A DNA stretch of 5,132 bases from a bacterium. Its GTDB lineage: Bacteria > CSSED10-310 > JAJRTK01. Every line of letters begins with the position of its first letter. Within the stretch, counting starts at the first letter, position 1. The notes under the pieces are model-generated. The model made no database searches and was not told where the DNA came from. It saw only the letters and a list, made by a program, of their open reading frames with translations. This document shows positions 780 through 5,132 of the stretch, in pieces. Location: assembly GCA_024278345.1 (NCBI GenBank), contig JAJRTK010000446.1:1-5132 (forward strand), in the 5' to 3' direction. Made by a program: the position numbers and the translations under genes.

Positions 780-2054
780 ATGAACGTGCAGTTTGAACGG
801 ATTGACGATTACCGCTGGCGAATTCCGCGGACGGGGAAAATGCGAGTGCCGGGGCTGGTCTTTGCGTCAGAAAAAATGCTCAAGAATATCCAGCGGGACA
901 AGAGCCCGGAACAGGTGGCGAATGTTGCGCACCTTCCGGGGATTGTGGGGCATTCCATCGCCATGCCCGACATGCACTGGGGATACGGTTTTCCCATCGG
1001 CGGCGTGGCTGCGTTTGATGAGCGAGAGGGCGTCATTTCACCAGGGGGCGTGGGGTATGACATTAACTGCGGCGTTCGGCTGCTCACCACCGATCTCAGC
1101 AGGGGCGAGATCAAGCGGGACCTGGAGGAACTTTCCCTGGCGCTCCACAAGGCGATTCCGTCGGGTGTGGGGTCTCGGAGTCACCGGAAGCTCTCGGAAC
1201 GGGAGCTGGAGGAAGTTTTGGTTCGCGGTGCGGAGTGGGCTGTGACTGCCGGCTATGGCCAGTCCCGGGATTTGCGGGTCATCGAGGAAGGTGGCCGCCT
1301 CGCTGGCGCCGACCCTGAAAAGGTATCGCCTAGTGCCAAGACTCGCGGGAGGCCGCAGCTTGGGTCCCTGGGTTCGGGCAACCACTTTTGCGAGGTAGGC
1401 TGGGTATCAGAGGTGTACAACGCCCGGGCTGCCGAGGCTTTCGGGCTTCGGCAAGGGGGCGTGACGGTGATGATCCACTCCGGCAGTCGGGGACTGGGCT
1501 ACCAGGTCTGCGCCGACTCGCTTCGCAAGATGATCCAGGCGTCGGAGAAATACGGGATCCATTTGCCGGATCGCCAGTTGTGCGCCGCTCCGCTGGGGAG
1601 TGACGAAGCGGCCGACTATTGGGGAGCCATGGCTTGTGCCGTCAACTACGCCTTTGCCAATCGACAAATGCTGACCCATTTCGTTCGAAAAGCTTTTTCG
1701 GAGTTTTTTGACGTCGATGGGCTCGGGATGGATCTGGTCTATGATGTCTGCCACAACATCGCGAAGTGGGAGCATCACGTCGTCGATGGCCGCAAAAGGC
1801 GGCTCTGCGTGCATCGCAAGGGTGCGACCCGGGCTTTTGGACCCGGCCATGAGTCGGTGCCGGATCTTTACCGCGAAGTCGGCCAGCCAGTGCTCATCCC
1901 GGGGGACATGGGGCGATATAGCTTCGTGTTGGCGGGAACCACGGGAGCCATGGAGGAGACCTTCGGGTCCTGTTGTCATGGCGCTGGCCGTCTCATGTCC
2001 CGGACCAAGGCGAAAAAACTGGCCAGGGGCCGTTCCATCTTCAAGGAGCTCTAG
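780..2054 (+). CDS. rtcB: RtcB RNA-splicing ligase, ended early by an in-frame TAG
   Basis: RtcB joins RNA 2',3'-cyclic phosphate or 3'-phosphate ends to 5'-OH ends, using GTP and Mn2+ through a guanylyl-histidine intermediate, in RNA repair or tRNA splicing in the cytoplasm. Family motifs are all present: MPDMHWGYGFPIGG (62-75), D94 and C97 in GVGYDINCGVR, GSLGSGNHFCEV with N201 and H202, IHSGSRG with H233, CHNIAKWEHH with H325, VHRKGATRAFGPGH (344-357), and CCHGAGRLMSR with the predicted nucleophile H400. Numbering is offset by about four from my recollection of Pyrococcus RtcB (H404). The start at ATG 780 has AAAGGGGA nine bases upstream and gives the usual N-terminus. The frame stops after 424 residues at TAG 2052-2054 (KEL-stop), where the family normally continues with about 50 more residues. 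Those residues follow in the same frame. The family call is certain; whether this copy makes active enzyme is not. Confidence 0.95.
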   Translation: MNVQFERIDDYRWRIPRTGKMRVPGLVFASEKMLKNIQRDKSPEQVANVAHLPGIVGHSIAMPDMHWGYGFPIGGVAAFDEREGVISPGGVGYDINCGVRLLTTDLSRGEIKRDLEELSLALHKAIPSGVGSRSHRKLSERELEEVLVRGAEWAVTAGYGQSRDLRVIEEGGRLAGADPEKVSPSAKTRGRPQLGSLGSGNHFCEVGWVSEVYNARAAEAFGLRQGGVTVMIHSGSRGLGYQVCADSLRKMIQASEKYGIHLPDRQLCAAPLGSDEAADYWGAMACAVNYAFANRQMLTHFVRKAFSEFFDVDGLGMDLVYDVCHNIAKWEHHVVDGRKRRLCVHRKGATRAFGPGHESVPDLYREVGQPVLIPGDMGRYSFVLAGTTGAMEETFGSCCHGAGRLMSRTKAKKLARGRSIFKEL

Positions 2055-2213
2055 GACCGAGGGATTTGGGTGAGGAGTGACAGCAAGCGAACCGTTGCGG
2101 AGGAGATCTCTGAAGCGTACAAAGATGTGGCCGAGGTTATCGAGGTCGTGCATGGAGCCGGGATCGCCAGGAAGGTGGCCAAGATCGTACCGCTTGTGGT
2201 GGTGAAGGGGTGA
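2055..2213 (+). pseudogene. rtcB: Severed C-terminal segment of RtcB, in frame after the TAG
   Basis: Reading on in the same frame after the TAG gives 52 codons to TGA 2211-2213, beginning [19 protein letters not shown] and ending VVVKG. This is the canonical RtcB C-terminus (family pattern KELEERGI...[27 protein letters not shown]...RPLGVVKG). With the TAG counted as one codon the protein would be 477 residues, close to the 481 I recall for Pyrococcus RtcB. The segment contains Y447 and K476, which by position match Tyr451 and Lys480, recalled as guanine-pocket residues. No frameshift or other damage is visible, so the lesion is a single codon. Possibilities are a recent nonsense mutation, readthrough or suppression, separate translation from GTG 2070, or a base-call error (GAG or CAG to TAG). 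I label it pseudogene for lack of a better type; it may be functional. Confidence 0.85.
2059..2064 (+). promoter_or_regulatory. Possible ribosome binding site for restart at GTG 2070
   Basis: GAGGGA lies five bases before an in-frame GTG (2070-2072) and five bases after the TAG of rtcB. This spacing would allow termination-coupled restart, giving a 48-codon C-terminal RtcB peptide. It could equally be ordinary coding sequence (D-R-G-I). Confidence 0.25.
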
Positions 2214-2454: not shown

Positions 2455-3564
2455 ATGCAAAGCGGGAGCAAAAGGATTGCGGGAAAGATGATGCAAGGAG
2501 TCCGGGAGGATTCGCCGGAGAACCATGGCAAGCCGGGGGCGCCCACGGCGGCGCGGAAGAACTCTCACGTGGAGGTCTGCGCCACCGGGAAAGTGGGCTC
2601 GGATCGCTTGACCACGGGCTTGGAACGGTGGAGGTTGGAGCACGCTGGTTTGCCGGAGCTCGAGTTCAACAAGGTCGAGACCGGTTGCGAGGTTTTCGGG
2701 AAGCGGATCGCGGGGCCTCTTTTCGTGGCGCCCATGACCGGGGGAACTCCGGAAACAGCCGGGATCGTGAGAAACCTGGCCCTGGCGGCGGAGGAGATGA
2801 AATTGCCGATCTCCGTGGGATCCCAGCGAGCAGCCATCGAGGATCCCGACCGAAAGAAATTCTTCGAGGTCCGGCGCTACGCGCCGACCGTTCCCGTCTT
2901 CGGAAACCTGGGGGCCGTGCAGCTCAATTATGGTTACGGCGTCCATGAATACCGTGCCGCCGTGGAAATGATCGAGGCCGACGCACTCTTTCTCCATGTC
3001 AATACCCTGCAAGAGTGCATCCAGGAAGGGGGAGACACTGATTTCAGAGGGCTTTTGAACAAGCTGGAGGAATTGGTCGTGAAGTTACCGGTTCCCGTGG
3101 TTGTTTCCGAGGTGGGTTGCGGTTTTAGTGAAACAACCTTGAAGCGGCTCAGGGATGTTGGAGTTCGGGCGGTCTGTCCCAGCGGAGGCGGCGGGACTTC
3201 GTGGGCTCTGGTGGAGGCGCTCAGGGCAAGATCGCCATCCCGGGCCAGGTCGGGCCGCCTTTTTCGCGATTGGGGCATTCCGTTGGCCGAGGCCGTGCAA
3301 TTGGCCAGGCGCCAGGACGAAGACTGGACCGTCATGGCCGTGGGCGGAGTCAAGGATGGCCTCGCGATGGCCAAGTTGGTGGCGTTGGGCGCCGATCTGT
3401 GCGGGATGGCGCGAGCCCTCTTGCCCGCGGCGATGGAGTCTGCCGATGCCGTTTTGGCGGAGATGCGGCAGCATCTGATCGACCTTCGGATCGCCATGTT
3501 CTGTGCCGGGGCCGGGAGCGTGGAGGAGCTTCGGATGGGAAACTTTCTTCGGCCAGTGGAATAG
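2455..3564 (+). CDS. fni: Type 2 isopentenyl-diphosphate delta-isomerase (FMN-dependent)
   Basis: This enzyme interconverts IPP and DMAPP, the two C5 isoprenoid precursors, using reduced FMN and Mg2+ in the cytoplasm. The 369 residues cover the whole TIM-barrel family: RKNSH (34-38), TTGLERWRLEHAGLPELEF (53-71), APMTGG (92-97), SVGSQRAA (120-127), FGNLGA (149-154), H181 and N183, LQE with predicted catalytic Q186 and Mg-ligand E187, GGDTDF (192-197), GGGTSWA (245-251), VGGVKDG and GADLCGMA near the end. The N-terminus is about 30 residues longer than usual before the RK..H motif. Two conserved places differ: the usual VKEVG reads VSEVG (S218 in place of Lys), and the usual DVxGxGGTSW reads CPSGGGGTSW (C241). 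From memory the Lys contacts FMN, so activity may be altered. The gene ends at TAG 3562-3564, where a mobile element is inserted. The family call is firm; unchanged catalysis is inferred. Confidence 0.92.
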   Translation: MQSGSKRIAGKMMQGVREDSPENHGKPGAPTAARKNSHVEVCATGKVGSDRLTTGLERWRLEHAGLPELEFNKVETGCEVFGKRIAGPLFVAPMTGGTPETAGIVRNLALAAEEMKLPISVGSQRAAIEDPDRKKFFEVRRYAPTVPVFGNLGAVQLNYGYGVHEYRAAVEMIEADALFLHVNTLQECIQEGGDTDFRGLLNKLEELVVKLPVPVVVSEVGCGFSETTLKRLRDVGVRAVCPSGGGGTSWALVEALRARSPSRARSGRLFRDWGIPLAEAVQLARRQDEDWTVMAVGGVKDGLAMAKLVALGADLCGMARALLPAAMESADAVLAEMRQHLIDLRIAMFCAGAGSVEELRMGNFLRPVE

Positions 3565-3571: not shown

Positions 3572-3806
3572 GGAGGTGGTCATCGGTGGTGCCTCCGGCA
3601 GCTCTCGCTGTCGCTCGGACCCGGCCACCCCCAAAAAAGCGCGCGGCGCACAAAAATGTGGGTCCAGGGAGTGCGCCCCCTGGCGTGGGTCTGGGAGCGG
3701 CGCTCCCAGCGGAGGTCCGGAGGCGGAGCCTCCGCCGGGTTCCAGGGCTGGAAGCCCCGGGGCTGGACCCGAAGTTCACTGGGTGGCCGGAACGATGACC
3801 AAGGCC
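3572..3806 (+). mobile_element. MITE-like non-autonomous element, copy 2 (235 bp)
   Basis: An exact 8-bp direct repeat flanks this block. Its ends match as inverted repeats over the outer 14 bases (11 of 14), including GGTCATCG (3578-3585) against CGATGACC (3793-3800). The right end (3782-3806) matches the right terminal repeat of copy 1 at 21 of 25 bases. Interior hairpins are GCGC-gcg-GCGC (3639-3649), CCAGGG/CCCTGG (3664-3683), CTGGGAGC-ggc-GCTCCCAG (3691-3709), CGGAGGC-gga-GCCTCCG (3718-3734) and CCAGGGCT-gga-AGCCCCGG (3742-3760, one mismatch). It is about 35 bp longer than copy 1 because of extra sequence just inside the left end (about 3586-3620). Open frames through it are by-products of the repeat. 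Its hairpins lie directly after the isomerase stop and could end or attenuate transcription, but there is no T-tract. Confidence 0.75.
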
Positions 3807-4012: not shown

Positions 4013-4360
4013 ATGGAAGAGCTGGTCTTTCAGCGGGTGCTCTTGAAGATGCTTCCGCAGCTTCTGACGATGTCGGGAATGTTCCTGATGGCCAAGTTCC
4101 TTTTTCTTCACGTAACGATGGGCATGGTCGTTTACCGAAACGCCAGCCAGATGGAGCGTTGTGCCTTGGAGATCCCTCCCGTGATTTGGGGTTTCATGGT
4201 GCTGGTCAGCCCGATTTTTGGACTTCTGGTTTTCTGGCTGATGCACCATTCGGTTTTGGTGCGGGAGCGGAAAGTGGCCAGCACGGAGCTCAACGGTGCA
4301 ACCGGCCTGGTGAGTGGGCAGTCGATTTTTGGGCCGCGGAAGGAGCCACCTGGAGCCTAG
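4013..4360 (+). CDS. Small two-helix membrane protein of unknown function
   Basis: I do not recognise the family. The 115-residue product has two hydrophobic segments: about residues 17-41 (LLTMSGMFLMAKFLFLHVTM and on) and about 53-75 (IPPVIWGFMVLVSPIFGLLV and on). They are joined by a short polar loop, YRNASQMERCALE, and followed by HH and a basic stretch, RERK. The tail of about 35 residues is polar. By the positive-inside rule both the loop and the tail carry charge, so topology is not settled. The layout (helix, VYR..., IPPxIW, helix with a conserved-looking Pro) resembles many small inner-membrane proteins without a known role. AAGGAG six bases before the ATG and the coherent membrane pattern argue that it is real. 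It lies 105 bp upstream of etfB on the same strand, so a link to electron transfer is possible but is only inferred from position. Confidence 0.75.
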   Translation: MEELVFQRVLLKMLPQLLTMSGMFLMAKFLFLHVTMGMVVYRNASQMERCALEIPPVIWGFMVLVSPIFGLLVFWLMHHSVLVRERKVASTELNGATGLVSGQSIFGPRKEPPGA

Positions 4361-4390
4361 CTGAGGGGTTGGTTTCGAATTGCCGGTGGG

Positions 4391-4419
4391 AGGAGATTCT
4401 GGTAGGTTAGCCTTCTCCT
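4391..4419 (+). repeat. Weak inverted repeat between the membrane protein gene and etfB
   Basis: AGGAGA (4391-4396) can pair with TCTCCT (4414-4419), and a smaller AGG/CCT pair lies inside. There is no T-tract after it. It might be a weak terminator, an attenuator or chance. Confidence 0.2.
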
Positions 4420-4465
4420 GAATCGAGATTCATTTTGACCACCGCGAACCAAGGAGTGCTTTGTG

Positions 4466-5132
4466 ATGAAGATCATCACGTGCGTCAAGCAAGTGCCGGA
4501 CAAGAACAGCCGGTTCAGGGTCCGTGACGATGCCATGGGTCTGGAGGAGAAGGGCCTGTCGCGAGTCGTCAACGAGTTCGACGAATACGCCATCGAAGTG
4601 TCGCTGCGGCTCAAGGAGAAGTTTGGCGGCGAGGTCGTCGTGGTGAGCGTGGGGGGAAAGAAGGTCAAGGATGCCATCCTCCGGGCTTTGGCGTTTGGGG
4701 CGGATCGCGCGATCCAGCTCGATGATCCAGCCCTGGTCGGTTCGGATGCCCTGGCCACGGCACGGGTCCTGGCCGCCGCGATTTCCAAGGAAGAGTTCGA
4801 CCTCGTGGTCACCGGTGTCTGGTCCGAAGACTTGACCCAGGCGCAGACCGGGACGATGTTGGCCGAGTTTTTGGGGATTCCCCACGCCACCATCGTCATG
4901 GAGATGGAGATCGATGAGGCGGGGCGAAAAATGAACGTCAAGCGGGAGCTCGAGGGTGGAATGCTCGAAGAGAGCGAGCTTCCCTTGCCGGCGCTCGTGA
5001 CCATCCAGGCCGGGGCCGCCGAAGTTCGCTATCCCACCATGCGCAACATCATGCAGGCGCGGCGGAAGAAGATCGCCAAGCCGAGCCTGGGAGACTTGGG
5101 GATCGAGGCTTCGTCCGTAGGTGCCGCGGGCC
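4466..5132 (+). CDS. etfB: Electron transfer flavoprotein beta subunit, cut by the window edge
   Basis: ETF beta pairs with the FAD-bearing alpha subunit, binds AMP (or a second FAD in bifurcating forms), and passes electrons from acyl-CoA or other flavin dehydrogenases to a quinone oxidoreductase or another acceptor. The 222 visible residues contain the family hallmarks: MKIITCVKQVPD at the N-terminus, NEFDEYAIEVSLRLKE (36-51), GADRAIQLDD (78-87), GSDALATARVLAAAI (92-106), a TGVWSEDLTQAQTGTMLAEFLG segment (116-137), and the C-terminal signature region VKRELEGGML...PALVTIQAG (158-183) followed by RYPTMRNIMQARRKKI. The form SEDxxxAQTG, in place of the DxDTGQVG of mitochondrial-type ETF beta, resembles ETFs of anaerobes and other non-proteobacterial lineages. 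The start at ATG 4466 has AAGGAG at 4451-4456, nine bases upstream; GTG 4463 is an in-frame alternative. With a usual length of about 250-260 residues, 30-40 are missing beyond the edge. etfA would be expected next. Confidence 0.95.
   Translation, partial: MKIITCVKQVPDKNSRFRVRDDAMGLEEKGLSRVVNEFDEYAIEVSLRLKEKFGGEVVVVSVGGKKVKDAILRALAFGADRAIQLDDPALVGSDALATARVLAAAISKEEFDLVVTGVWSEDLTQAQTGTMLAEFLGIPHATIVMEMEIDEAGRKMNVKRELEGGMLEESELPLPALVTIQAGAAEVRYPTMRNIMQARRKKIAKPSLGDLGIEASSVGAAG

Follow-up and report, generated by a model that had tools for sequence, protein, structure and literature searches.

The closest described counterpart of the gene discussed here is the RNA-repair ligase RtcB of Pyrococcus horikoshii (3'-P/5'-OH RNA ligase; PH1602; PF01139; PDB 1uc2/4dwq/4it0), of which a K480A variant is inactive unless Archease is present (PMC3973293). 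The locus can also be compared with bacterial genes recently turned into pseudogenes by a single stop codon, and with pyrrolysine or otherwise TAG-recoded genes. It lies in a window of 5,132 nucleotides (the whole stretch of DNA analysed), which is one complete contig of a draft genome of 6.06 Mb in 550 contigs, estimated at 87.9% complete. From an ATG at 780-782 on the plus strand, the rtcB frame (780-2213) runs to an in-frame TAG at 2052-2054, placed 53 codons ahead of the gene's normal end, and then stays open through 52 further codons to a TGA at 2211-2213, as the sequence-only reading had reported. The truncated open reading frame (780-2054, plus strand) specifies 424 amino acids and includes the CHGAGR catalytic histidine motif with H400; the intact C-terminal tail, including its TGA, occupies 2055-2213 on the same strand.

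When the TAG is read as a sense codon, the frame matches the whole of the PF01139 profile (positions 1-426 of 426) with 582.3 bits, against 514.7 bits for residues 1-424 (profile positions 1-372), both far above the curated cut-off of 27 bits, and a phmmer alignment to the P. horikoshii protein (1uc2) scores 590 bits, runs from end to end with no gap at the TAG column, and pairs residue 477 with the last Pyrococcus residue, 481. Because the profile score rises and the alignment is complete, the tail is judged to be real RtcB sequence, far beyond chance, as had been proposed from its appearance. The H400 motif, Y447 and K476 of the window correspond to H404, Y451 and K480 of Pyrococcus, so that the constant offset of four claimed earlier holds in the C-terminal part, but not through the body of the protein, where there are small gaps of one residue near residue 20 and of two and one near 312-314. 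No inserted residues appear at the TAG site in these alignments, and an intein or other insertion there was rejected. The conspicuous departure from the Pyrococcus protein is thus the TAG at residue 425, which leaves the conventional product 53 residues short at its C-terminus; under the standard code the HGAGR histidine and the C-terminal Lys-Gly fall outside a single translated chain, H400 lying before the TAG and K476-G477 after it. On this sequence comparison we file the gene as rtcB and do not claim a working RtcB enzyme. A search of the viral contigs with the RtcB protein returned no relatives.

Alignment of 109 relatives, drawn from many named groups, shows what usually occupies the column of the TAG. 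It is glutamate in 45 of them, alanine in 27, lysine in 12 and arginine in 10, with Q, S, G, N, L, M, Y or T in the remainder, and because these four and eight further residues all occur there we regard column 425 as a variable position among the sequences compared; a stop is present in none of the 109. The nearest genomes searched share only the phylum with the source of the window. The comparison with close relatives that had been suggested earlier shows that the two closest have AAG (L031, 71.6% identity) and GAG (L032, 68.8%) at this codon, both of which are one base away from TAG.

The tail itself is well preserved, retaining 22 of the 24 columns in which at least 80% of 80 relatives agree, including EE441-442, YK447-448 and K476. 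Counting those columns in which L031 and L032 agree and the window differs, the tail has 7 such window-specific replacements among 43 positions and the body 31 among 288, a difference that is not significant (Fisher p = 0.30) and so gives no significant indication that the tail has begun to decay. It follows that the stop would be recent, not real, or not obeyed.

The last of these possibilities bears on how the genome treats TAG in general. Release factor RF1 is present (491.7 bits, above the cut-off), and among 311 long open reading frames in a 0.5 Mb sample, 87 terminate with TAG and the open stretch following TAG is no longer than that following TAA. We also compared 788 non-overlapping open reading frames from relatives with 0.97 Mb of the genome, covering 72.8 kb of its coding sequence; 36 genes share their endpoint with their homologues, and 11 of these use TAG. 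Across the roughly 71-73 kb of coding DNA covered, the rtcB TAG is the sole internal stop that is flanked on either side by strong homology in the true frame; the further stops listed in the scan lie in antisense or low-identity alignments. TAG is therefore neither depleted as a terminator nor read through in several genes, and as far as these data can test, it appears to be obeyed as a terminator in this genome. The earlier suggestion that general reassignment of TAG is disfavoured is borne out by RF1 and by the 11 homology-checked genes that end in it.

A suppressor tRNA or pyl genes, which the sequence-only reading had suggested looking for, were not found. Matches to PylS remain below threshold (23 and 21.7 bits against a cut-off of 178), and none of the 48 tRNAs recovered from the 87.9% complete genome was read with a CTA anticodon, the loop of one tRNA being unreadable by ARAGORN. 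The pair expected for pyrrolysine decoding, PylS together with a CUA tRNA, is thus not seen; although the window resembles pyrrolysine and TAG-recoded genes in having an in-frame TAG followed by conserved coding sequence, it differs from them in these respects, in its RF1 and use of TAG as a terminator, and in that its TAG stands at a variable column, which does not coincide with any known active-site position. General reassignment of TAG, including pyrrolysine decoding, was rejected on these grounds. A more restricted proposal is that natural suppression, pyrrolysine insertion or low-level near-cognate decoding lets ribosomes pass the rtcB TAG and make some full-length RtcB. The conservation of the tail up to its normal stop is what such a mechanism would predict, and a suppressor tRNA could be encoded in the missing part of the genome; however, with the findings above, and with no second sense TAG in about 73 kb, we consider read-through very improbable.

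Some tRNA-like sequences were encountered in this search. On contig C257 (L240), a tRNA-like gene whose anticodon loop is abnormal lies at 2872-2944 on the minus strand (reported by ARAGORN as 'tRNA-???', anticodon 'tg'). At 2663-2754 of the same locus, also on the minus strand and immediately before a tRNA-Met of low G+C content, is a tRNA-like sequence of permuted order, consisting of the T-arm and 3' acceptor strand, three bases (GTG), the 5' acceptor strand, the D-arm and the anticodon arm; in the predicted fold the acceptor stem has 7 bp and the variable arm is closed by a stem of 5 bp. This could be a permuted tRNA, a Y-RNA-like element or a shuffled tandem remnant; its match to YrlA is below threshold (29.2 bits against 69), and no full-length match to it was found in 60 other genomes. 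Partners of the Ro/Y-RNA type were rejected, as no TROVE protein was found and the YrlA matches are sub-threshold and tRNA-derived in appearance.

The sequence immediately downstream of the TAG offers a different way in which the tail might be used. A spacer of 7 bases separates a GAGG at 2059-2062 from an in-frame GTG at 2070-2072 (together 2059-2072, plus strand), and ribosomes terminating at the TAG could in principle reinitiate there, so that a peptide of about 47 residues from the tail would complement the truncated body of 424 residues. However, a start-type codon occupies the same residue in 24 of 80 intact relatives, 12 of which also have a suitably spaced Shine-Dalgarno-like motif, because the protein motif (K/R)-G-I-x-V is conserved; the candidate start and ribosome binding site of the window are therefore judged coincidental. 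A split at this column is not conserved either, since none of the 109 relatives has a stop there. With an equivalent site in 12 of 80 unsplit relatives, a gene split by reinitiation was rejected as background, and a two-chain RtcB is the least probable of the alternatives considered, below even read-through. No Rfam match is present in the window even at E <= 1, and an RNA element at the stop was rejected for that reason; no terminator beyond chance was detected 3' of the TAG. Taken more broadly, it is very doubtful that this lineage obtains its RtcB by amber read-through or reinitiation dependent on context, as a regulated or two-chain ligase, while TAG serves its ordinary role elsewhere.

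The sequence-only reading had listed a nonsense mutation, a base-call error, read-through and a split protein without choosing among them; the last two are weakened by the results above, and the first two remain, reads being needed to separate them. An error in the consensus, or a minority variant taken up by the draft assembly, would mean that the real gene encodes an intact RtcB of 477 residues. Internal-stop artefacts are frequent in draft and public assemblies, and many of the 'pseudogenes' with internal stops in public assemblies are assembly errors (PMC11017572). The conserved tail is consistent with this, since an intact tail with no second lesion would also be expected of a consensus error, as are the single copy of rtcB, the single base change required and the size of the contig, 5.1 kb within a metagenome-type assembly of 550 contigs. 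Spurious stops nevertheless seem to be uncommon in this assembly, as the roughly 71 kb of coding DNA covered by homology contained no other convincing internal stop. We regard such an error as the main rival reading, a serious but lesser possibility.

The contig is tied to its genome by a G+C-rich interspersed repeat at 361-520, of about 110-160 bp, which has at least 40 copies in the genome that are 75-93% identical; a similar-looking stretch is visible by eye at 3640-3790. Many copies of the repeat sit at contig ends, and so it probably breaks the assembly. The remaining genes of the window appear intact, a point against the reading of rtcB as mutated that is given below. They comprise a type 2 isopentenyl-diphosphate isomerase gene (2455-3564; TIGR02151, 338 bits), a small membrane-like open reading frame with no family match 3' of it (4013-4360), and after this the gene for an ETF beta subunit, which the end of the contig truncates (within 4013-5131).

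Loss of RtcB activity would be the expected consequence if the TAG is obeyed. The 424-residue product lacks the tail with the lysine equivalent to K480, and neither an archease gene nor a second intact rtcB was found in the 87.9% complete draft, the latter having been proposed for search earlier; by analogy with the Pyrococcus variant, the shortened protein should therefore be inactive, in agreement with the impairment first suspected from the sequence. Rescue of a pocket-defective enzyme by Archease was rejected because the gene was not found. Such a loss is plausibly tolerated, as any match to the window's RtcB is present in just 44 of 60 sampled genomes, and an example of rtcB loss is seen in an unrelated genome (G057), where a decayed remnant at L265 2258-2536 and nearby, on the minus strand, comprises a short open reading frame, degraded pieces of RtcB and a separate match to the tail.

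We are inclined, with moderate confidence, to view this as an ordinary rtcB gene, encoding a dispensable RNA ligase, that has been inactivated by a recent nonsense mutation. One base substitution would have converted codon 425, a variable one, to TAG, and the nonsense allele would be either fixed or polymorphic in the population sampled. Translation would then stop at codon 425, and the 424-residue product, missing the C-terminal residues, Y447 and K476 among them, with which the guanine-binding pocket is completed, would not be guanylylated and would be inactive, while too little time would have passed for the tail to decay. In having one lesion, an otherwise intact tail, a patchy distribution and no second copy, the window rtcB resembles recent single-stop bacterial pseudogenes, and we see no difference from them, the stop in the window being known from the consensus; the presence of the TAG in cells is somewhat favoured over an error in that consensus.

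There is no sign here of a new way of reading genes, and the event is of an ordinary kind. Taken alone it is of little importance: in one draft genome, from a bacterial phylum that has been sampled only thinly, the single RtcB RNA ligase has apparently been lost in recent time or its gene has been misread in sequencing. Should reads confirm the TAG and the protein turn out to be full length, the locus would be an unusual bacterial case of read-through in a single gene.
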